The notes beneath the pieces are model-generated. The model had not been told where the DNA came from. It made no database searches and saw nothing but the letters and a program-made list of their open reading frames with translations. From assembly GCF_030815955.1 (NCBI RefSeq), contig NZ_JAUSXK010000001.1, forward strand, positions 2,294,001 through 2,358,000: a DNA stretch of 64,000 nt, in the 5' to 3' direction. How positions within the stretch are numbered: the stretch's first letter is position 1; each line of letters opens with the position of its first letter. Positions 53,609-63,751 of the stretch are shown here, piece after piece. The translations under genes were made by a program, and so were the position numbers. Source of the DNA: Microbacterium murale (GTDB lineage: Bacteria > Actinomycetota > Actinomycetes > Actinomycetales > Microbacteriaceae).

Positions 53609-53639
53609 TTGACGTTGACCCAAGGTCAGGGTTCACACT
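53609..53639 (+). promoter_or_regulatory. MerR-type promoter with 19-bp spacer and central dyad
   Basis: TTGACG (53609-53614) and CACACT (53634-53639) are separated by 19 bases, longer than the usual 17. The spacer carries the dyad TGACC-CAA-GGTCA (53616-53628). This arrangement is typical of promoters activated by MerR proteins, which untwist the long spacer. The serine hydrolase gene and a merR-family gene follow on the same strand. Confidence 0.7.
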
Positions 53640-53692
53640 CGCGTCAGCGACACGAGAACGGTCGCAGAAAACAAGGCAAGGAGCCGAATATC

Positions 53693-54856
53693 ATGACCGA
53701 AGTCACCACCTCAAACGTCCAGTCCACTGTTTTGGCGGCGGGAGGCGACTCACCGGAGTCGGATCGTCCTGAGCTTCAGCACATCCTCCAGGACATCGTT
53801 GATTCGGGTATCACCGGCATCACTCTGCGTGTTCGCGATGAACGCGGAACGTGGGCCGGTTCCGCCGGCGTCGGCCGGATCGGAGATCCGGAACTCCCCG
53901 CGATCAACGGTCACGCCCGCATCGGCAGCAACACGAAGACGTTCACCGCCGTCGTGATGCTTCGTCTTGTCGCCGACGGCCTGATCGAGCTGGATGCTCC
54001 CGCGAAGCAGTACCTGCCCGAGTTCGACATCGACCCGCGCGTCACAGTCCGGATGCTGTTGCAGCACACCAGCGGAATCTTCAACTTCACCGGCGAGGTC
54101 TACCCGGACGGCACGATCGTTATGGGGATCCCGGCCACGCCCTCCGGCAAGGAATGGGTGGACAAGAGATTCGTGACCTACGCTCCGGAAGTACTGGTGC
54201 GATTCGCGCTGTCCAAGCCGGCGCGGTTCGAGCCTGGCACCGATTGGAGCTACGCCAACACCAACTACGTGATCGCCCGGCTCATCATCGAGAAGGTGAC
54301 GGGGAGCACGGTCGCCGCCGAAATGCGTCGCGTGATCTTCGACCCCCTCGGCCTTGAGGGCACGACGCAGCCGAGCAACGAGATCGACCTCGCCGAGCCG
54401 CACGGGCACGCCTACTACCGGTACGAGGAGGATGGCGAGGAGGTGACCGTCGACATCAGCGAGCACAACCCGTCCTGGATATCCAGCGGAGGCGACATGA
54501 TCTCCACTTCAGAGGACCTCGAGACGTTCCTGTCATCACTCATCGCAGGAAGGCTGCTCCCGGCGGAGCTGCTGGCGGAGATGCTCGCAGCACGGCCGAC
54601 GCCGCTTCCTGGTATGGACTACGGCCTCGGCGTGTTCGTGCAGGATCTGGGCGAACACGGCACCGTGATCACGCACAACGGCGGCATGGCCGGATACGCG
54701 GCGCTGATGTACTGCACGCCCGACGGCCGTACGGCCATGACGGGCACGTTGAACTACATCGACGACGCCACGATGTCATTGGCCGTCGCTTTCCAGCAGG
54801 GCGCGCAGAGGCTCGTCGACGCCGTGTTCCGTGCCGGGACGCCGATCGCCGGGTGA
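53693..54856 (+). CDS. Serine hydrolase, beta-lactamase (class C)/D-aminopeptidase family
   Basis: A 387-residue penicillin-binding-fold hydrolase. The catalytic SxxK is Ser79-Asn-Thr-Lys82, the YxN motif is in WSYANTNY, and HNG (in VITHNGGMAGYAA) takes the place of KTG. The family includes DD-carboxypeptidases, class C beta-lactamases, esterases and D-aminopeptidases; no signal peptide is seen, so a cytosolic role is likely. AAGGAG nine bases before 53693 sets the start. It follows a MerR-type promoter and is followed by a merR-family gene, suggesting ligand-induced expression. Confidence 0.88.
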   Translation: MTEVTTSNVQSTVLAAGGDSPESDRPELQHILQDIVDSGITGITLRVRDERGTWAGSAGVGRIGDPELPAINGHARIGSNTKTFTAVVMLRLVADGLIELDAPAKQYLPEFDIDPRVTVRMLLQHTSGIFNFTGEVYPDGTIVMGIPATPSGKEWVDKRFVTYAPEVLVRFALSKPARFEPGTDWSYANTNYVIARLIIEKVTGSTVAAEMRRVIFDPLGLEGTTQPSNEIDLAEPHGHAYYRYEEDGEEVTVDISEHNPSWISSGGDMISTSEDLETFLSSLIAGRLLPAELLAEMLAARPTPLPGMDYGLGVFVQDLGEHGTVITHNGGMAGYAALMYCTPDGRTAMTGTLNYIDDATMSLAVAFQQGAQRLVDAVFRAGTPIAG

Positions 54857-54923
54857 GTGCAGTACTGCGAGTCGGTCGTGGCCGCTATTGTGGCCGAGTG
54901 CTTTCGAGAGGCAAGGCGAAAAG

Positions 54924-55709
54924 ATGAGCAGCGGAGTCACGATCGGGCAGGCGGCCGCGTTCGCCGGCGTCACGGTGAAGACGGTGCGGCACTATCACAA
55001 GCTCGGTCTGGTGGCTGAGCCCACGAGGGACGCCTCTGGATATCGGAGGTACGGCACGGCGGAGATGCTGCGGCTTGTGCAGGCGCGTACCTTCGCCGGT
55101 GCCGGAGTTCCTCTGGCTGAGATCGTCGCATTGCTCGACGCCGACGACGCGGAGTTCGCATCCGCGCTCGTCGGCGTCGAGCGCAAGCTCTCGGCGCAGA
55201 TCGACGAGCTGATCTCGCGACGGCACATGCTTCGAAGACTGACCGACGGCGATCGTACGCTTCTGCCTGACCGGGCTGTCGCGCTGCTGGAAAGAATGTC
55301 GCGACTCGGCTTCAGCGACGAGGAAGTGGTCTCCACCCGAGAAGGGCTGGTGCTGGCGAGCGCGCTGGTGCCGGAGAGATTCGAGGAGCATCTCGCCCTC
55401 GTCGAGAATGCTCTGGGCGACGAGCAGTTCGTCGCGCTGAGCCGGCGAGCCGCGGAAGCCGTCAACTGGGCTTCGGACGATCCCCGCATCGAGTCGCTCG
55501 TAGATGAAGTCGTGGCGCACTACCTCGCGAATCCGGAGCATCTGCGGATAGTGACTGGCATGCAGGCCCGTTCCGATGCCACGGCTCGATACGGTCTGGT
55601 ACGCGACGTCGGGGCGGATCAGGGCACGGTCGGTGAGTGGCTGACAGGGCTCGTCGAGGCGGGGCTCCGCGCCGCCGGTGCCCGAATCCCCCGACAGGAA
55701 CCCCGCTGA
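54924..55709 (+). CDS. MerR family transcriptional regulator
   Basis: A 261-residue activator/repressor. The N-terminal winged helix (TIGQAAAFAGVTVKTVRHYHKLGLV, then GYRRYGTAEMLRL) and the coiled dimer helix are typical of MerR. The large C-terminal helical domain probably senses an organic ligand, as in TipA-like members. It lies 67 bases after the serine hydrolase gene and probably shares the 19-bp-spacer promoter, giving autoregulation. Confidence 0.9.
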   Translation: MSSGVTIGQAAAFAGVTVKTVRHYHKLGLVAEPTRDASGYRRYGTAEMLRLVQARTFAGAGVPLAEIVALLDADDAEFASALVGVERKLSAQIDELISRRHMLRRLTDGDRTLLPDRAVALLERMSRLGFSDEEVVSTREGLVLASALVPERFEEHLALVENALGDEQFVALSRRAAEAVNWASDDPRIESLVDEVVAHYLANPEHLRIVTGMQARSDATARYGLVRDVGADQGTVGEWLTGLVEAGLRAAGARIPRQEPR

Positions 55710-55781: not shown

Positions 55782-57311
55782 TCAGGGGAGTTCGACGGCG
55801 TAGTGCGCGGTGACGTCGGAGACTTCGCCGCGGGGGATGTCTCCATCGCCGACGCGTATCGAGAACGACTGCACGAGCGGATCCGGCAGCCCCATCAGGT
55901 GCACATCGCAGATCAGCGCGCCGCGTTCGCAGGGGATCCTCCAGCGCAGCGAAGCGGCATCCCTCGCGGTGACGATGCGCTGCGAGACGGGCCCAGCGTG
56001 CCGGAGCGGATCGCCTACCTCGTCGAACGCGGCACGAAGCCGGGTGTCGCGCACTGGCACCGGAACGTCGCGAAGCACGTTGCGGGCGAGCAGATCGGTT
56101 GCATCTGAGAGCGGGCGCCCCGTGCGTACGAGATCATCCAGGACTGACGCCGCGGCGAGCGTATCCGACCATGGCCGGACGATCGCAGCCGGCGCGCCGA
56201 TGGTGGTCAGCGTGTCCCGAAGCGCCTGAGCCGCGACGGGCCCGGCGTCGAACGCGTCGGAGTTGCCGAACACGACGGCGCCGAGCCCGCTGGCGGGATG
56301 CCACCGCATGTGCGAGGAGAAGCCGGGAAGTCCGCCGGCGTGTTGGAGGATGCGGCCGAACCTCCGGTCGTGCTCGACGACGACCCCATAGCCGTAGCCG
56401 GCGCCGTCGACGTCGTGACGGTCGAAGCGTGCCCCGGAGATCGGAATCATGGATCTCGCCCCTTGCAGCTCCCGGCGGGAGGCTGCGCAGAGCACATCCT
56501 CGGCGACGGGATCGGCATCGAACGCCGTGCTGAGGAAGTGCATCCATCGTGCGATGTCGTCGAGTGTCGAGAACAGGCTGCCGATGCAGGCGAGTGCTCC
56601 CGACCCCACGAACGGCTCTTCGACGAAGGTCATCCCGTCGTCGAAGGTGCGAAAGCCCAGGGCGAGATCGGTACCGCGCGGATACAGCGATGCCGCTGCT
56701 CTGGTATCCGACAGACCGAGCGGATCGATGATGCGCTCCTGCATCACGACCTCGACGGGCAGCCCCGTGACCGACTCTATGGCCCGACCGATCATCGAGA
56801 TGCCGAGGTTCGAATAGTGGTATTCGCTGTCAGGAAGCGCAGCGAGCCGAAGACCGGAATCGACGAGTTCGCCGATCAACTCGCGCGGTTCGCCGAGCAT
56901 CTCATCGACCCACGCATTGTCCTCCGTGAGGCCTGCCCTGTTCGACAGCAGTGAGGACAGCGTCATCGACACGGGGCGGCCCTGGAAGGTCGCTGCGGCG
57001 AGACCGGGCACGTACTCCGCTGCCGGAGCGTGCAGATCGAGCAGTCCGTCATCGCGGAGCGCGAGAGCGGTGGCGGCGAGGAAGCTCTTCGTCATCGAGG
57101 CGATGCGGAACACCGTACCCCGCGCGGTCGGGGACCCGTCTCGTCGTGGCGTCCCCTGCACGTCGACGGCGAGGATCTCGCCATGGTGAGTGATGGCGGC
57201 TGCGGTTGCGGGGGCGAGGTGCCGCGTCGCTGCGAGCGCATTCCGTAGCCCGTCCGCTGCCACGGCGCGGTCGAGCACAGCCCTCGTCGATGGCACGGGT
57301 GTGCTGCTCAC
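55782..57311 (-). CDS. Serine hydrolase of beta-lactamase/D-aminopeptidase type, last gene of the NSAR operon
   Basis: A 509-residue penicillin-binding-fold enzyme with Ser72-Met-Thr-Lys75 (SxxK), YxN in YHYSNLG and an HAGG motif near residue 330. An extra C-terminal domain of about 140 residues follows, as in D-aminopeptidase and ClbP-like relatives. No signal peptide is visible. The GTG start overlaps the stop of the M19 fusion gene by four bases. Its place with racemase and dipeptidase genes suggests it cleaves D-amino-acid-containing peptides or amides; this is inferred from context. Confidence 0.85.
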   Translation of the reverse strand: MSSTPVPSTRAVLDRAVAADGLRNALAATRHLAPATAAAITHHGEILAVDVQGTPRRDGSPTARGTVFRIASMTKSFLAATALALRDDGLLDLHAPAAEYVPGLAAATFQGRPVSMTLSSLLSNRAGLTEDNAWVDEMLGEPRELIGELVDSGLRLAALPDSEYHYSNLGISMIGRAIESVTGLPVEVVMQERIIDPLGLSDTRAAASLYPRGTDLALGFRTFDDGMTFVEEPFVGSGALACIGSLFSTLDDIARWMHFLSTAFDADPVAEDVLCAASRRELQGARSMIPISGARFDRHDVDGAGYGYGVVVEHDRRFGRILQHAGGLPGFSSHMRWHPASGLGAVVFGNSDAFDAGPVAAQALRDTLTTIGAPAAIVRPWSDTLAAASVLDDLVRTGRPLSDATDLLARNVLRDVPVPVRDTRLRAAFDEVGDPLRHAGPVSQRIVTARDAASLRWRIPCERGALICDVHLMGLPDPLVQSFSIRVGDGDIPRGEVSDVTAHYAVELP

Positions 57312-59053
57312 GCCCGGATCCCCGCAGCCTCACGCACCTCTTGTGCGAAGCCGCGCACCAGCGCCAAGCATGCTGCGGTGTTCTCGTCGTCGTCGTGAAG
57401 GGCCTCTGCGACGAGGTCTGCGACCGGACGGTCGCCCGGTGCAGGATCGGTCGGTTCGCTCCACCACTGAAGGTCATCGGCCGAGACTTCGGGATGGAAC
57501 TGCACTCCGCGGACATGCGCTCCGAGGCGGAACGCCTGGATGGCGACCCCCTCACTCGACGCGAGCAGCACGGCGTCGGCCGGCAGCACCGTGATCTGGT
57601 CCTGGTGGTTCTCGATCATCGGTGCGGCACCGCCGAGCCCCGACATCACCGCATCCTGCTGTCCGGCCGGCGTCGTCCTGATCACGGTGGAACCACGCTC
57701 CTTGACCCCGTACGACTCGCGCACCTCGCCCCCCGCGATCTGAGCGAGCAGCTGTCCGCCGAGGCAGATGCCGAGGGTCGGCAGATCCCGTTCGATCGCT
57801 TCGGATGCGAGCCGTCGTTCGGTCGGGAGCCAGGGGCCCTTCTCGACGTCATCCGGCATCATTCCACCCCCGAGCATCACCAGACCGTCGTAGCCGTCCA
57901 GACTCTCCGGAAGACCATGCGCGCCGTAGCGCACGTCGGCACGGACTCCTGCGGCATCAAGCCAGCGCAGCAGTCGACGAGGTCCTGACCCGTCTGCATT
58001 CACGACGATGAGCACGCGCGGACGACCCTCACGCCCGGACAGGAACGCGAGGTGGTCGGCATCGGAGGCCTCCAGCACCCGCAGCGCGTTGCGGAACGCC
58101 AACGCCTGCAGTTCGTCTTCCGTCCACCCCCTTCGGCGCAATTCGTCGAGCAGCCGCTGATACCCCGAGACGTCCTCGAGGCCGGTGGGCATCGCATCCG
58201 TGCCGTCGTAGTCTGCACCGATGCCTACGGCGTGCACGCCCGCGACGGCTCGGACGTGTTCGATGTGATCGGCGACATCGGCGATCGTCACCTCGGGCGG
58301 TGCGCCGACCTCGCCTGCGACGTGCCAATCGTGGCGCGATTGGCTGAGGAAGGTCGGGACGAACGCGACCATGACGATCCCGCCGCCCGCTCCGATCGCG
58401 GCGATCACGTCGTCCGGGACATTGCGTGGATGATCGCAGAGTGCTGCGGCACCCGAGTGACTCACCATCACCGGCCGGACGCTCGTGGCGATCGCGTCCC
58501 GCATCGTCGTCGGCGCGACGTGCGCGAGATCGACGAGCATCCCGATCCGGTTCATCTCCCTGACGACGTCGCGACCGAAGTCGCTGAGGCCGTCGTGGCG
58601 CGGTTCGTCCGTGGCGGCGTCGGCCCAATCGGTGGTGTGATTCCAGGTGAGCGTCATGTAGCGCGCACCGAGCCGTGCATACTGCCTCAGCACACCGAGG
58701 GAGCCGTCGATCTGCGCGCCCCCTTCGACTCCGATCAGAGACGCTATGCGCCCCTGCCGGATGGTGGTGCGGGCCTCCTGCGCGGTGCGGGTGAAGGCGA
58801 AGACCTCCGGATAGTCCTGCACGAGCCGATGCACGAAATCGATCTGCTCGAGGGTTGCAGTCACCTGCGCCGCGCCCTCGAGTGCGGAATCCACCCACAC
58901 CGACCAGAACTGACCGCCGACGCCTCCTGCGTGGAGCCGCGGGATGTCCGTGTGCGCCTCTGCAACGAGTTCATGCAACTGTTGCGTGGACAGTGCGTGG
59001 CGCTTTCGACGCGCCCAGGCCAGGTCGTTGTGGCCGTCGATCACCGGAATCAT
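57308..59053 (-). CDS. M19 membrane-dipeptidase-type enzyme fused to a class I glutamine amidotransferase
   Basis: A 581-residue two-domain protein. Residues 1-340 form a renal-dipeptidase-like amidohydrolase with metal ligands in DGHNDLAW (His8, Asp10), Glu110 in IGVEGG, and histidines in VDLAHVAP and MVSHSG. This family cleaves dipeptides, including those with a C-terminal D-residue. Residues 345-540 form a class I amidotransferase/GMP-synthase-like domain with Cys430 (GICLGGQ), His520 and Glu522 (FHPE). There is no signal peptide, so both act in the cytosol. I know of no standard family with this fusion. Operon neighbours suggest dipeptide and gamma-glutamyl hydrolysis. Confidence 0.88.
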   Translation of the reverse strand: MIPVIDGHNDLAWARRKRHALSTQQLHELVAEAHTDIPRLHAGGVGGQFWSVWVDSALEGAAQVTATLEQIDFVHRLVQDYPEVFAFTRTAQEARTTIRQGRIASLIGVEGGAQIDGSLGVLRQYARLGARYMTLTWNHTTDWADAATDEPRHDGLSDFGRDVVREMNRIGMLVDLAHVAPTTMRDAIATSVRPVMVSHSGAAALCDHPRNVPDDVIAAIGAGGGIVMVAFVPTFLSQSRHDWHVAGEVGAPPEVTIADVADHIEHVRAVAGVHAVGIGADYDGTDAMPTGLEDVSGYQRLLDELRRRGWTEDELQALAFRNALRVLEASDADHLAFLSGREGRPRVLIVVNADGSGPRRLLRWLDAAGVRADVRYGAHGLPESLDGYDGLVMLGGGMMPDDVEKGPWLPTERRLASEAIERDLPTLGICLGGQLLAQIAGGEVRESYGVKERGSTVIRTTPAGQQDAVMSGLGGAAPMIENHQDQITVLPADAVLLASSEGVAIQAFRLGAHVRGVQFHPEVSADDLQWWSEPTDPAPGDRPVADLVAEALHDDDENTAACLALVRGFAQEVREAAGIRA

Positions 59054-59056
59054 TGG

Positions 59057-59926
59057 TCAGCCCTTTCGTGCGTTCAGGAAAGCGGAGATGCGCTCGGTGG
59101 TCGCGTGGTCGACGTGCTGAGCGACGCCGTCGAGCGATCGCACCGGCGCGGCGCCACGAGTGCTCGAGCACAGCCAGAGGGCATCAGCATCCGAAAGATC
59201 GGAGACGGTGAGGGCGCGCACTGCGACCCTGTCGCCGCCTTCTCGCAACGCCTCGAACGCGTCGGCCTGGGTGGTGCCGGGCAGGATGCCGAACTCCACC
59301 GGAGGCGTGACGTACTCGCCGTCGATTCTCGCGATGACCGTCGAGTTCGGCCCCTCCAGGATGTATCCGTCACTGGACACGAAGATCACGTCGCTTGCTC
59401 CGCGGCGTCCCGCCTCGCGAAGCGCAGCCATGTTCACCGCATACGACAGGGTCTTCGCACCCTGCAGCAGCCACGGTGCCGTCGTCGCGACATCCGAGCG
59501 ATACCCGCGGTCGAGCAGTACGACGTCGAGCTCTGGCGGAACCCCTGTGCGGTGACGTGTGGGGGCGAATCCGAGTGCCCATCCCGTCGGCTCTCCGGTC
59601 GCCTCGTCGCCGCGGGAAAGGATGTACTTGACCGCCCCGCGCGACACATCCATCTCAGCGGCGACTCTCTCGACGACTGTCCGCCACAGCACGCGATCCG
59701 GCGACGGAAGCTCGAGCAGGCTCGCGGATCGTTCGAAGCGGTCCAGATGGGCTTCCATCGCCTGGGGGACGCCGTCGACGAGGACAACTGTCTCGAAGAC
59801 CCCGTCGCCGCGCGTGGCCGCGAGATCGGTGCCCGTCAGGAGGGGAGCCGCCGGGTCCAGGCGCTCCAGCGCGGAGGCAGGATCACCGGCACGGAGATCG
59901 ACGCGGTACAGAACGAGCGGTTTCAT
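59057..59926 (-). CDS. Class IV aminotransferase (D-amino-acid transaminase/aminodeoxychorismate lyase family)
   Basis: A 289-residue fold type IV PLP enzyme. RGDGVFET near residue 40, the PLP-binding Lys158 (AKTLSYAVN) and the EGPNST cofactor loop are present. The family contains D-amino-acid transaminase, branched-chain aminotransferase and aminodeoxychorismate lyase. Sequence alone does not choose, and this copy is not near pab genes. Its operon with NSAR and dipeptidase genes favours D-amino-acid transamination. A GAGGAGG ribosome site lies close to the ATG. Confidence 0.82.
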   Translation of the reverse strand: MKPLVLYRVDLRAGDPASALERLDPAAPLLTGTDLAATRGDGVFETVVLVDGVPQAMEAHLDRFERSASLLELPSPDRVLWRTVVERVAAEMDVSRGAVKYILSRGDEATGEPTGWALGFAPTRHRTGVPPELDVVLLDRGYRSDVATTAPWLLQGAKTLSYAVNMAALREAGRRGASDVIFVSSDGYILEGPNSTVIARIDGEYVTPPVEFGILPGTTQADAFEALREGGDRVAVRALTVSDLSDADALWLCSSTRGAAPVRSLDGVAQHVDHATTERISAFLNARKG

Positions 59927-59943
59927 TGTCCTCCTCGGGGATC

Positions 59944-61059
59944 TCAGACGGTGAGTTCAGCGGTGCGAACGGCGTTCTGCCGCACCCAGTCGATGTCGAC
60001 CTCGTACCCGATGCCTGGCCCATCGGGCACCTGCACGACGCCGTTCTCCGCGACCACCGGCGGCACGATCACATCCCGCTCGTAGTACTTGTCGGAACCG
60101 GACACGTCCGATGGCAGCGTGAAGTTCGGAAGCGATGAGATCGCGACGTTCGCGGCCCGCCCGACGCCGAACTCGTGCATGCCGCCGCACCACACCGGGA
60201 TACCCGCGTCTCTTGCGAGGTCGTGTGCGCGGCGCGCAGCGAGGAGTCCGCCCATGCGGGACACCTTGATGTTCAGCACGCGACCGGCATCCAGCTCGAT
60301 CATCGTTCGCAGGTCTGCCAGTTCGACGACGGACTCGTCGAGACAGACGGGGGTCTGAATCCGTCGTTGCAGTCGCGCGTGGGCAGGGAAGTCTCGCGGC
60401 GCGTACGGCTGCTCGATCATGGTGAGCGATTGCTCGTCCAGCTGGCGGAAGACTTCAGCAGCCTCCTCCGAGTCCGGATACGCGCCGTTCGCGTCGACGT
60501 GCAGATCCAGATGGGGATGATGGTTCCGCACGACCCGGACGGGCTCGACGTCCCACCCCGGCGCGATCTTCAACTTGATCCGTGGATAGCCGGCGCCCAC
60601 CTGCGTCTCCACCTGCGTCAGCAGAGCGTCGAGGCTGGGCTCGATGCCGAGCGAGACGCCTGCCACCACCTCCGTGCGCGTGCCGCCGAGATCAGCAGCC
60701 AGCGAGAGGCCCTGAGAGCGGGCATGGATGTCCCACGCGGCGGCCGAGAAGCCCGCCTTCGTGAACTCGTGCCCGCGGATTCCGGACCACGTGCTCTCCA
60801 GCTCGGCGGGGTCTTCCCATGTGGCGCCGAGCACCGCAGGAACGAGGTACCGATTGGCGATCAGCCACGCCGTGTCCGTCGTCTCCGACGTGTAGAACGG
60901 GTCGGACGGCGAGGCGATCTCCCCCCACCCGGACCGTCCGTCGGCATCGGTGACCTGAACCAGGATGTGCTGCAGGCTGCTCTTGCGGTGCGAACTCGTC
61001 TCGAAGCTGTGCACGAGCGGCAGCGAGACCTCGAAGAGCGCGACGCGTGCGATTCTCAC
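59944..61059 (-). CDS. N-succinylamino acid racemase / o-succinylbenzoate synthase family enzyme
   Basis: A 371-residue enolase-superfamily enzyme. The acid-base lysines are Lys162-Leu-Lys164 and Lys265 (NIKVSRMGG); the metal ligands are Asp189 (VDANGAY), Glu216 (MIEQP) and Asp241 (LDESV). This spacing matches Amycolatopsis-type NSAR/OSBS enzymes. No other menaquinone genes are nearby, whereas GNAT and M20 genes are, so racemisation of N-succinyl-D-amino acids is the likely role. The GTG at 61059 with AAGGAG eight bases upstream overlaps the SIS gene stop; the longer frame upstream is shadow sequence. Confidence 0.9.
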   Translation of the reverse strand: MRIARVALFEVSLPLVHSFETSSHRKSSLQHILVQVTDADGRSGWGEIASPSDPFYTSETTDTAWLIANRYLVPAVLGATWEDPAELESTWSGIRGHEFTKAGFSAAAWDIHARSQGLSLAADLGGTRTEVVAGVSLGIEPSLDALLTQVETQVGAGYPRIKLKIAPGWDVEPVRVVRNHHPHLDLHVDANGAYPDSEEAAEVFRQLDEQSLTMIEQPYAPRDFPAHARLQRRIQTPVCLDESVVELADLRTMIELDAGRVLNIKVSRMGGLLAARRAHDLARDAGIPVWCGGMHEFGVGRAANVAISSLPNFTLPSDVSGSDKYYERDVIVPPVVAENGVVQVPDGPGIGYEVDIDWVRQNAVRTAELTV

Positions 61060-61736
61060 CTGTGGTTCTCCTTGCCGTGATCGGGATGGTGCAGACCCAG
61101 ATCCGCCGCCAGCTCGTCGCGTGCGGAAAGGCGACGCCGGGCTCCCTTCGCGCTCGCCGTGGTGAGGGTGCTCAGCAGGTGGCACACTGCGGCCACAGCG
61201 GTGGGTGAGTCCGCGTACGACGCGGAGTGGGTGTGCACTTTGATCACGACGGATGCCACCTCGGTCAGAGGTGCATCGTCGCTGTCGGTGATGAGGATGA
61301 GTTCGCCACCGGCCCGACGGAACCGCTCGCCGAAGCGGATCGATTCTTCTCGATAGCGCCGCATGGTGAAGAGCACGAGCAGATCGGAGGCGCGCACGTC
61401 GGTCAGCACTGCGAGGGGGGAGAGGGCGCGGTCGTCGACGAGGAAGACATTGGACAGGGTTGCGGACAGGTCGGCGGCGAGCAGGTCGGCATACGCCACG
61501 GTCTTGCCCCGCCCGGTGATGTAACGCCGTCTGGCACCCAGAATCAGCGTCGCCGCGTGCGACACGGTGCCGGTCCGAGTGAGTTCGTCGAAGGTGCGCG
61601 CCAGAGACCGCGTCTCGGTCTCGATCACATTCGCCTGCAACGCCTCGGCAGACTGGCTCGTGCGGAAGCGCTCGCCGAATCGCGCCCCAGGTGAATCCAG
61701 TGCGCGGTCATCCTCATCGTCATCGCCGCGTGTCAT
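61056..61736 (-). CDS. SIS-domain protein, RpiR-like without the N-terminal HTH
   Basis: A 226-residue protein whose core (about residues 55-190) is a SIS phosphosugar-binding fold as in RpiR/MurR regulators: an ATLILGARRRYITGRGKT strand-loop, SDLLVLFTMRRYREESI and ELILITDSDDAPL. The usual N-terminal 75-residue HTH_6 DNA-binding domain is missing; the N-terminus is only a short acidic tail and one helix. It may sense an aminosugar or muropeptide-type ligand and work with another DNA-binding partner, or be an isomerase-like enzyme. It overlaps both neighbours by four bases. Confidence 0.82.
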   Translation of the reverse strand: MTRGDDDEDDRALDSPGARFGERFRTSQSAEALQANVIETETRSLARTFDELTRTGTVSHAATLILGARRRYITGRGKTVAYADLLAADLSATLSNVFLVDDRALSPLAVLTDVRASDLLVLFTMRRYREESIRFGERFRRAGGELILITDSDDAPLTEVASVVIKVHTHSASYADSPTAVAAVCHLLSTLTTASAKGARRRLSARDELAADLGLHHPDHGKENHR

Positions 61737-62503
61737 CGCACATCCTCCCCTGCAAGATAGACCGCCGTTTCATCATCGATTCTCGTGCAGTTCACCAGGA
61801 CGAGACCCGCCTCGAATATCTCCTGCATCCCTTCTCGGATGTGCGCCCGCAGCGTGCTTCCCGTGGCAGCGGGCCCATCCGTGACGGCTGGGAGCGGGAG
61901 CCGTGCGATGCGACGATCGTTCTCTGTTGCCGAGAACACGCGCCCCCATTCTGCGGCGTCGAACGCGGGGGATGGCAGGCTCCGGATGCCAGCGAACGGA
62001 TCGCCGTCGCGATCGAGTGCCCAATCCACGACGATGCGGTCGGTTCCGGGCCGGTCGTAGTAGTCGACGGCGTAGCCGGTGCCCTCTGCCTGGAGTGTGG
62101 CGAAGTTGAAATGAGCGTTGCGCGCCAGCAGCGGATCGAAGGTCCACCGCATCCGCTGCTGCCCCCAGCCGAGCGCGACCTGCCGCTGGCCCGCCTTGAG
62201 CAGGCGGCCGACGCCGCGACCCTGGTACTCGGGATCCACGACCGCGGCCTGCGAATAGTGGAACTCTGCGGCGCTGCGGTCACGGCCGGCGAAACCGTAG
62301 GCGAAACCGACCAACCGGCCCTCGTCGCGCACGCCGATCGCGGAGCCACCGTTACGGGCAAGGGCGCTGACCAGGTTGGGGTTCAGTGAGAACTCGTCAT
62401 GCTCGTAGCGAAAGACGCGCGTGTACAGAGCAGCCGCTTCCCGAATGGCGGCGTCGCCGACGAGGGGCTCTGCGTGCAGCGGGACGATGGGCTGGTTTGG
62501 CAT
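61733..62503 (-). CDS. GNAT acyltransferase of COG3375 type, probable D-amino-acid N-succinyltransferase
   Basis: A 256-residue acyl-CoA-dependent N-acyltransferase. The acetyl-CoA loop is PEYQGRGVGRLLKAGQR, after AAVVDP. The region WTFDPLLARNAHFNFATL and the later TDRIVVDWALD are typical of COG3375, the GNAT family found beside NSAR genes. In Geobacillus such an enzyme succinylates D-amino acids as the first step of a D-to-L conversion. The ATG at 62503 directly follows a GATACGTATC palindrome on the operon's upstream side, so this is the first gene and probably the regulated one. Confidence 0.85.
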   Translation of the reverse strand: MPNQPIVPLHAEPLVGDAAIREAAALYTRVFRYEHDEFSLNPNLVSALARNGGSAIGVRDEGRLVGFAYGFAGRDRSAAEFHYSQAAVVDPEYQGRGVGRLLKAGQRQVALGWGQQRMRWTFDPLLARNAHFNFATLQAEGTGYAVDYYDRPGTDRIVVDWALDRDGDPFAGIRSLPSPAFDAAEWGRVFSATENDRRIARLPLPAVTDGPAATGSTLRAHIREGMQEIFEAGLVLVNCTRIDDETAVYLAGEDVR

Positions 62504-62513
62504 GATACGTATC
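62504..62513. promoter_or_regulatory. GATACGTATC palindrome between divergent GNAT and M20 genes
   Basis: A perfect ten-base palindrome, extended imperfectly by CAT and CTATG on its flanks, lies directly before the GNAT start and 100 bases before the M20 gene. The same half-site recurs in the hairpin after the M20 gene. It is the best operator candidate for the D-amino-acid cluster. Confidence 0.55.
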
Positions 62514-62612
62514 CTATGGTGGCGGTTGTCGAACGCCAACGGTTGATTTTGCAAGTATCCGTCGCCATAGGTGTGGACCGATATGTCTCGTATGATGACG
62601 CGCGGAGGAGAT

Positions 62613-63725
62613 ATGAACGATACGGAGCAGGCGAAGGCCCTCGTCGAACGGCTCGCGCAGTTGACACTCATCGAGTCGCCGTCGCTCGACGTCGCTGCCA
62701 GCGATAAGGTCGTCGACCTGCTGGCGCACTGGTGGCGCGCAGCCGGTGCGCAGGTGCGAACGGTCCCCACATCTGCCGGGATGAACCTCGTCGCGGACAT
62801 CGCCGGAGACGGCGATCCGATCCTCTTGGTGGGGCATTCGGACACGGTCTGGCCCGTCGGCACTCTGCGCAGCGACGTCCCTTGGGTCGACGACGGCGAG
62901 GTCGTTCGGGGTCCTGGCGTGTACGACATGAAAAGTGGCCTGCTGGTGATGCTCGCCGCAGCCGAGCGCTTGCGCGGACGATCGCACCGGGCGTTTCGAG
63001 TGGTCGTCGTCTGCGACGAGGAGATCGGCTCTCCCACGACTTCCGGGTTGCTGCGCGAGTGCGCCGCCGGCGTGCGTGCGGCGATCGGATTCGAGTCGCC
63101 GCATCCGGATGGCGCGCTGAAAGTCGGCCGACGTGGCAGCACTCGAGTGCGTCTCGCCGTCACCGGCCGCGCATCGCACGCTGCGCTGGACCCCGAAGGT
63201 GGCGTCTCGGCGATCGACGAGCTCGTCGATCAACTGCGGATGCTGCGCACCGTCGTCGCTGATCCGAACCTGGTTTCCGAGGTGCTGTGCAATGTGGGCA
63301 CGATTCGAGGCGGCGGCAGAGCGAACGTCGTGCCCGCGGATGCGGAGGCCGAGATCGGCCTGCGATTCGTCGACCCCGCTACCGAAGCTCAGGTGCTTTC
63401 CGCCATTCGATCGCTCCAGCCCATTCGGAACGGAGCGCGACTGCAGGTCGATCTGCTTAGCCATCGCCCGGCGTGGCGGGCATCCGACGCCGACGAGGAG
63501 CTGCTCTATGCCCTCTCGGCTGCGGCGACCGGAATCGGCCAGCACATCGAAGGGCGCCCCGCTGCCGGGGCGGGAGACACGAATCTGCTGGGATCTCTGG
63601 GGGTGCCGACCGTCGACGGGTTCGGCCCGAGGGGCGGCGGTGCGCATGCGGTCGACGAGCACATCCTGACCTCCTCGCTTCTGGAACGTGTCGCGTTGCT
63701 GGAGGCTTTCCTCTCAGGAAAGTAG
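62613..63725 (+). CDS. M20 family metallopeptidase, probable N-succinyl-L-amino acid desuccinylase
   Basis: A 370-residue di-zinc aminoacylase/carboxypeptidase of the CPG2/ArgE/DapE superfamily. Zinc ligands and catalytic residues are visible: His75-Ser-Asp77, Asp105 (YDMKSG), Glu136-Glu137 (CDEEIGS), and a late His in GGGAHAVDEH. The GRASHAALDP segment lies in the dimerisation domain. No signal peptide. It is divergent from the GNAT-NSAR operon, and in the known NSAR pathway an M20 enzyme removes succinate from the L-product. GGAGGAG ends two bases before the ATG; ATGs at 62592 and 62595 are less likely. Confidence 0.87.
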   Translation: MNDTEQAKALVERLAQLTLIESPSLDVAASDKVVDLLAHWWRAAGAQVRTVPTSAGMNLVADIAGDGDPILLVGHSDTVWPVGTLRSDVPWVDDGEVVRGPGVYDMKSGLLVMLAAAERLRGRSHRAFRVVVVCDEEIGSPTTSGLLRECAAGVRAAIGFESPHPDGALKVGRRGSTRVRLAVTGRASHAALDPEGGVSAIDELVDQLRMLRTVVADPNLVSEVLCNVGTIRGGGRANVVPADAEAEIGLRFVDPATEAQVLSAIRSLQPIRNGARLQVDLLSHRPAWRASDADEELLYALSAAATGIGQHIEGRPAAGAGDTNLLGSLGVPTVDGFGPRGGGAHAVDEHILTSSLLERVALLEAFLSGK

Positions 63726-63728
63726 ACC

Positions 63729-63751
63729 CGGGATACGATTCGTATCCCGGA
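63729..63751. promoter_or_regulatory. Palindrome with GATACG/CGTATC arms after the M20 gene
   Basis: Two perfect ten-base arms (CCGGGATACG and CGTATCCCGG) flank a three-base ATT loop, four bases after the M20 stop. As RNA it would be a stable hairpin, but the run that follows (AAGATGTTAAG) is not a T-tract. Because the inner arms match the operator candidate at 62504, it may be a second binding site, a terminator, or both. Confidence 0.55.

Follow-up and report, generated by a model that had tools for sequence, protein, structure and literature searches.

A putative regulon for the cytoplasmic salvage of D-amino-acid peptides in Microbacterium murale

What task unites the seven genes at 55782..63725 of a 64-kb stretch of the Microbacterium murale genome (the window, C1:2294001-2358000; the genome is a single contig of 4.11 Mb)? 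An earlier note on this DNA read them as a complete salvage cluster for D-amino acids and D-peptides, built around an N-succinylamino acid racemase (NSAR) as in the pathway that Sakai et al. are said to have described from Geobacillus kaustophilus in 2006. Our analysis leaves the coordinates and the D-amino-acid theme standing, and it does not show a categorically new system. We consider it probable, from the gene content and its conservation, that the locus is a regulon for the cytoplasmic salvage of D-amino-acid peptides; it is a new and conserved variant, probably under shared control, of a known route that here also takes in the import and hydrolysis of peptides. A GNAT acyltransferase beside an NSAR is nothing unusual in actinobacteria; the novelty lies in the peptide module and in an enolase that forms a subfamily of its own, its lid and pocket residues being changed.

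All seven genes are open. Six are transcribed from the minus strand in the order GNAT, SIS-domain protein, NSAR-like enolase, class IV aminotransferase, M19-GATase1 fusion (a dipeptidase joined to a class I glutamine amidotransferase-like domain) and S12 serine hydrolase, and the M20 metallohydrolase gene diverges from them. The successive intergenic gaps are -4, -4, 17, 3 and -4 bases, which confirms the earlier description of genes joined by overlaps or gaps of at most 17 bases, and a library scan assigned the families S12/PF00144, M19/PF01244, Aminotran_4, MR_MLE, SIS, GNAT and M20. The genes named in the earlier note are real and in place, but its reasoning left out the SIS gene and the GATase domain on M19, and the cluster is not complete at 63725, as the set continues beyond the window.

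We compared the best 80 of 283 enolase-homologue loci, taken from one-per-species genomes, and scored gene presence by tblastn; the loci extend at most 10 kb outward, so that outer genes are undercounted. GNAT was present in 79 of the 80 loci, SIS in 69, M20 in 67, M19 and GATase in 33 each, and S12 and the aminotransferase in 31 each. The gene-order survey that the earlier note had called for showed a grouping beyond chance: GNAT lay on the same strand as NSAR and at most 2 kb upstream of it in 79 loci, SIS stood between the two in 68, and M20 was divergent and within 1 kb of GNAT in 65. This M20|GNAT-SIS-NSAR order was kept across several actinobacterial families, and the core was found in many genera; the grouping of GNAT, NSAR and M20 is supported. 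Exceptions included Nesterenkonia, in which eight of nine loci had GNAT and NSAR only, and the two named Leifsonia loci, both of which lacked SIS.

The enolase (371 aa; 59944..61059, minus strand), proposed here as an N-acyl-D-amino-acid racemase of a distinct subfamily, matched TIGR01928 with 283 bits (cut-off 200.65) and the N-acylamino acid racemase 2ggg with an E-value of 5.8e-86. The catalytic residues KLK, D, E, D and K, which correspond to the KxK motif, the metal ligands and the second catalytic Lys, were retained in at least 97% of 89 homologues. Arg268, three residues past the second Lys, occurred in 86 of 86 distinct cluster-clade sequences and in 20 of 22 generic NSARs; it is the R266-like position, an NSAR determinant. 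In the lid and pocket, Ser23, His24, Lys26 and His295 were found in all 86 cluster-clade sequences and Phe297 in 85, where the 22 generic NSARs had F (19), G (18), E or Q (9 and 7), L (15) and T (18). Likewise, the solved racemase 2ggg has a TSFGVQ lid and a GGMLES pocket, against TSSHxK and GGMHEF in the cluster clade. The specificity of the enolase has probably shifted, perhaps towards a charged substrate. At 1e-60, enolase matches occurred in 151 of 393 genomes of the class, and the identities among the class matches listed fell into two groups, with 17 at ≥ 62% (own genome included), one at 55% and the others at ≤ 48%. In the tree, the cluster clade (26 rows, 97/98 support) split from the generic sequences; three generic rows with long branches, and the sequence at 55%, branched on the side of the clade but immediately outside it.

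Among the other core proteins, GNAT (256 aa; 61733..62503, minus strand; PF00583), which would N-acylate D-amino acids, keeps SQ..Q.G.G and RW..DP..RNAHFN-like motifs among its homologues. The SIS-domain protein (226 aa; 61056..61736, minus strand; PF01380) resembles the RpiR family (3sho, E 6.9e-5); as no helix-turn-helix family was found in the scans and no earlier in-frame start exists, a role as a DNA-binding regulator was rejected. M20 (62613..63725, plus strand; PF01546 and PF07687), a proposed N-acyl-L-amino-acid deacylase, has its more probable start at 62613, where an ATG follows GGAGGAG, and its less probable one at 62571; it matched carboxypeptidase G2 with an E-value of 4.6e-23. 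When the glutamate-binding sites of the latter were compared (Arg 324 and Lys208), the Arg of the RPA[FW] motif aligned in M20 and Lys208 did not clearly do so, and the comparison was not used as proof.

A 13-base palindrome, ATACGA-N-TCGTAT, points to a common control. The window contains three sites within two mismatches, all in intergenic DNA of the cluster (expected 0.73; one of 100 shuffles reached three): 62505..62517 at the GNAT start and 62581..62593 upstream of M20, each with two mismatches, and the perfect copy ATACGA-T-TCGTAT at 63733..63745, between M20 and an importer operon outside the window. At GNAT, the site directly adjoins the ATG and may in part be a leaderless promoter. 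Nowhere else in the genome is the palindrome matched exactly, as it is by the perfect copy; when two mismatches are allowed, 36 sites are found genome-wide and 19 with a reversed control, so that most of these may be due to chance. A one-mismatch copy at C1:3204507 lies inside an open reading frame that reads like an ABC-type ATPase, and it was set aside, no link being seen. Among relatives, 41 of 65 M20-GNAT gaps had a site within two mismatches, compared with 0.9% of shuffled gaps and none of the 65 for the reversed pattern, and the stretch between M20 and the importer's substrate-binding protein (SBP) gene had the motif in 10 of 28 cases against one of 28 for the reversed pattern. Within these regions, sites had a density of 1.46 per kb, as opposed to 0.015 elsewhere. 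From these results, we infer a putative operator that would co-regulate the enzymes and the importer.

Do the peptide genes belong with the racemase core at all? It could be argued that this is an ordinary Geobacillus-type NSAR pathway, acting on hydrophobic or aromatic D-amino acids, and that independent genes for the use of peptides (dipeptidase, GATase, hydrolases and importer) just happen to lie nearby, an explanation that we consider unlikely. In 22 generic actinobacterial NSAR loci that were fetched, a GNAT relative lay within approximately 3 kb in 18, an M20 relative was found in six (five clear, one weak), an M19 relative in one and a relative of the cluster SIS in none. The GNAT-NSAR pair is therefore ordinary in actinobacteria, which fits such a pathway and does not support, in the form given, the suggestion in the earlier note that the set is foreign to described actinobacterial biology. 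The modules also occur apart: M19 is absent from 47 of the 80 core loci, two loci (L140 and L141) have SIS-M19-GATase and the importer beside a flavoprotein, with NSAR, GNAT and M20 absent from the stretch fetched, and L138 has GATase, the S12 hydrolase and the importer with the core absent. In all, five family genomes had GATase without a cluster-clade enolase. Against independent neighbours, however, cluster-clade enolase and GATase each occurred in 19 of 398 family genomes and were common to 14 (hypergeometric 5.6e-18, a value overstated, to the detriment of our own reading, because related genomes are not independent), and according to the listed coordinates the two lay within 4 kb of each other in 13 of these 14. 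The M19-GATase fusion, the 4-base overlaps, the shared motif and a pocket unlike those of 2ggg and the generic NSARs also argue against it.

Several further observations concern the composition of these loci. The importer genes SBP, DppB and DppC were each present in 29 of the 80 loci, S66 in 25, the first class A-type hydrolase in 17, a C39-like peptidase in 13 and a D-aminoacylase-like amidohydrolase in 12; the function of the last is assigned by resemblance, and one match was to an amidohydrolase subfamily, below cut-off. In eight loci (L069, L074, L075, L078, L081, L093, L094 and L097), the core is followed by a membrane-transporter-like protein and the D-aminoacylase-like amidohydrolase, and the peptide module is absent; the transporter-like protein of L094 had no NCBIfam match. 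Gordonia amarae (L030), a member of another order, has a Microbacteriaceae-type set at 55-75% identity, with S66, a single class A-type hydrolase and the importer among its genes, which suggests transfer. The genome of L142 carries its core on a different contig from the importer, two class A-type hydrolases and a GATase that contains an internal stop. In L050, the aminotransferase, M19, GATase, S12, S66 and ATPase each match in at least two pieces, as if frameshifted, probably because of a low-quality assembly. Separately, one generic NSAR locus (L117:8651-12640) has, besides GNAT and M20, a distant relative of M19 (30%); NSAR and a dipeptidase may have come together there independently.

The aminotransferase (289 aa; 59057..59926, minus strand; PF01063), a class IV enzyme dependent on pyridoxal phosphate (PLP) and a proposed D-amino-acid transaminase, retains the RGDGxFE loop and the PLP lysine, and its closest solved relative is CpuTA1 (5k3w, 242 bits); it scored 55 bits against the D-amino-acid transaminase model TIGR01121 (cut-off 277). 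CpuTA1 is reported to be active with D-alanine and 2-oxoglutarate and inactive with L-alanine (PMC5131300). Outside the cluster, the genome also encodes a branched-chain aminotransferase and a paralogue that is PabC-like (48%); we rejected the cluster enzyme as the sole PabC because of this paralogue, both proteins scoring just around the same aminodeoxychorismate lyase cut-offs. In one locus (L034, apparently on the same contig as L144), a tandem pair of aminotransferase copies stands behind the enolase. A flavoprotein of the D-amino-acid dehydrogenase subfamily was found in L140 and L141 and in five loci that lack the aminotransferase (L038, L055, L059, L062 and L073). Among loci with M19 and GATase, it was present in five of the 12 without an aminotransferase and in none of the 21 with one (p 0.003, for loci that are related). 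Given this mutually exclusive occurrence, the aminotransferase and the flavoprotein look like alternative outlets for D-amino acids.

In the fusion protein (581 aa; 57308..59053, minus strand), PF01244 covers residues 2-328 and PF00117 residues 360-525. The M19 part scored 366 bits to PF01244, and its DGHND, EGG, HV and HS residues, which presumably include the metal-binding His, Asp and Glu, were conserved among 32 homologues. M19 enzymes characteristically free the C-terminal D-residue from L-Xaa-D-Xaa dipeptides. The GATase1 domain is intact, with C90, H180 and E182 (domain numbering) invariant in 21 sequences. M19 and GATase formed a single open frame in 12 of 33 loci and were separate or frame-broken in 21; both domains occurred in 55 of the 120 protein matches listed (of 7999), and the named two-domain proteins among the matches listed came from Microbacterium, Leifsonia, Galactobacter and Canibacter. 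The predicted GATase1 model (pLDDT 93.5) was nearest to stand-alone GATases (TM1158, DnfC, SMU.1228c and 3m3p), and then to plant gamma-glutamyl peptidase 1. The latter, at fold ranks 5-10 and also among the sequence matches, gives some reason to consider the processing of gamma-glutamyl or glutathione-like conjugates, in which GATase1 would remove gamma-Glu, M19 would split the dipeptide, and GNAT and M20 would acylate and deacylate the amino acid. We regard this as improbable, since it accounts neither for the racemase nor for the D-specific relatives of the aminotransferase, the exchange with the flavoprotein or the D-aminoacylase-like neighbour.

The S12 protein (509 aa; 55782..57311, minus strand; PF00144) has a beta-lactamase fold and no evident signal peptide, and its SxxK and YxN motifs were invariant in 21 sequences. 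Among the best 50 of 1022 fold matches to its predicted model (pLDDT 88.8), the nearest was an archaeal penicillin-binding protein homologue, followed by ClbP, one entry of which carries an N-acyl-D-asparagine analogue, and LACTB; R61 DD-peptidase, D-peptidases and esterases ranked lower, and no D-aminopeptidase was named among these 50. With 33 bits against the NCBIfam D-aminopeptidase model (cut-off 443), the label "D-aminopeptidase-like" in the earlier note is weak.

Past the window end, downstream of M20, we found genes for a family 5 binding protein, two permeases and a double ATPase, then an S66 LD-carboxypeptidase gene, a class A-type serine hydrolase, a C45/AAT-family hydrolase and a second class A-type hydrolase, and next a gene that reads like lysS (by reading only). 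The S66 gene (L100:14537-15512 = C1:2363537-2364512) is split over two reading frames here and open in L020, so it may contain a sequencing error or be a pseudogene; its protein is muramoyltetrapeptide carboxypeptidase-like, with a score below cut-off. The C45/AAT-family autoproteolytic hydrolase, between the two class A-type serine hydrolases (L100:16342-17394), was found in one of the 80 loci, many of which end before that point. On the left side of the cluster, at 53609-55709 on the plus strand, a second S12 serine hydrolase gene overlaps a MerR regulator gene and faces the cluster; both were rejected as members because a convincing counterpart stood beside the cluster in none of the 80 loci. 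In a simple N-terminal hydropathy scan, the hydrolases reached 0.3-1.5 and the binding protein 2.7. Since the hydrolase N-termini are less hydrophobic than that of the binding protein, peptide hydrolysis is probably cytoplasmic and follows import.

The region brings together M19, a C45/AAT-family hydrolase and several hydrolases with a beta-lactamase fold, which would also suit the catabolism or detoxification of D-amino-acid natural products, such as beta-lactams or peptide antibiotics. That purpose appears quite improbable, as the beta-lactamase-fold proteins all scored below beta-lactamase cut-offs among the matches listed and the core is spread over many genera. A role of the enolase as the o-succinylbenzoate synthase (OSBS) of menaquinone synthesis, a possibility raised in the earlier note and the function that TIGR01928 would give it with a match above cut-off, is scarcely credible, because the genome has a separate menC elsewhere (470.6 bits, cut-off 288) beside menB and a menE-like gene, and among the cluster genes scanned there is otherwise no men gene; the TIGR01928 name is thus likely a misnaming.

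Returning to the salvage of D-amino-acid peptides, we propose the following course. The oligopeptide ABC importer would take up D-amino-acid peptides, which the cytoplasmic S12 and class A-type hydrolases, M19 with its fused GATase1 and, where intact, S66 would split. GNAT would acylate the freed D-amino acid, the NSAR-like enolase would racemise the N-acyl amino acid, and M20 would deacylate the L-form, so that the flow would be pulled one way. The aminotransferase would serve as a second outlet by passing the amino group of D-amino acids to 2-oxoglutarate. The route from peptide to L-amino acid outlined in the earlier note is plausible, with the importer and the shared motif now added. A narrower form of it is a D-glutamate (D-Glu) funnel fed by stem peptides of the cell wall, with one operator over all steps. 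The aminotransferase or the D-amino-acid-dehydrogenase-like protein would handle D-Ala and others, with 2-oxoglutarate collecting the amino groups to give D-Glu; the M19 domain and the GATase1 fused to it would free D-Glu from L-Ala-D-Glu and from amidated or gamma-linked D-Glu; and a D-Glu-tuned GNAT, enolase and M20 (with the charged SHxK lid and the carboxypeptidase-G2-like M20) would convert D-Glu to L-Glu irreversibly. This narrower form is unlikely.

The following points weigh against peptide salvage as we propose it. First, the cluster enolase does not match the lid and pocket of characterised NSARs (TSFG, GGMLE[ST]). In the NCBIfam scan, GNAT matched no model, and SIS and M20 had no match above cut-off (for M20, among 25 of 36 matches listed). 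The S12 and GATase1 families also include esterases and ammonia-transfer domains. Additionally, seven of the 33 loci with M19 and GATase had neither aminotransferase nor flavoprotein, the flavoproteins of L140 and L141 scored 168 and 166 bits against a cut-off of 383, and among solved proteins the first is most closely related to glycine oxidases. Two loci with GATase and no NSAR (L137 and L139) lack M19, SIS and this importer, and L137 lies beside a distant importer. Finally, a site within two mismatches was missing from 24 of the 65 M20-GNAT gaps; when 13 additional family loci were scanned, on contigs that partly repeat earlier loci, five had such a site (L142 and L146-L149) and eight had none, including L140-L141 (peptide module only) and L144-L145 (core). 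The loci that do not fit, with regard to the motif or as GATase-only loci, weaken our reading slightly.

If the proposal is correct, it would show by what means actinobacteria, Microbacterium, Leucobacter and Kribbella among them, reuse the D-amino acids of cell walls and peptides. The cluster ties the racemisation of D-amino acids to the uptake and cleavage of peptides, in a unit that appears to share its regulation. It would also provide a physiological setting for an enolase family that NCBI's model names after menaquinone synthesis and that is used as a biocatalyst (PMC7431475). The new pieces are the M19-GATase1 fusion, the NSAR subfamily with a changed pocket and the candidate palindromic operator. 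In a literature search of titles and abstract openings, with most subscription papers outside its coverage, no description of this cluster was found.

Compared with known systems, the locus combines familiar and divergent features. Its M19 domain is like that of the dipeptidase PDB 3id7 (E 2.7e-102), presumably Sco3058 of Streptomyces coelicolor; unlike 3id7, a 400-residue chain matched by the M19 part only, the cluster protein also carries GATase1. The aminotransferase shares the class IV fold of CpuTA1 (5k3w) and is presumably kin to Rv0812; unlike CpuTA1, it is bound to a cluster, with a second paralogue elsewhere in the genome. CpuTA1 and Rv0812 are reported to be active as D-amino-acid transaminases. 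DgcA (NF042940), by the name of its model, also takes D to L through an enolase-superfamily N-acyl amino acid racemase, but the cluster enolase scored 88 bits against it (cut-off 400). Generic actinobacterial NSAR/OSBS loci mostly have GNAT nearby as well, and their enolases are 38-47% identical to that of the cluster. The closest parallel is the Geobacillus kaustophilus pathway, whose GNAT acts on aromatic D-amino acids (as cited in PMC8762209): GNAT, an NSAR-family enolase and M20 are grouped in both, and the catalytic residues of the enolase are kept. In contrast to that pathway, the Microbacterium murale cluster has an enolase with a TSSHxK lid and GGMHEF pocket, an extra SIS gene and a dipeptidase-GATase fusion, and it adds an aminotransferase, an S12 hydrolase, an importer and a shared motif.

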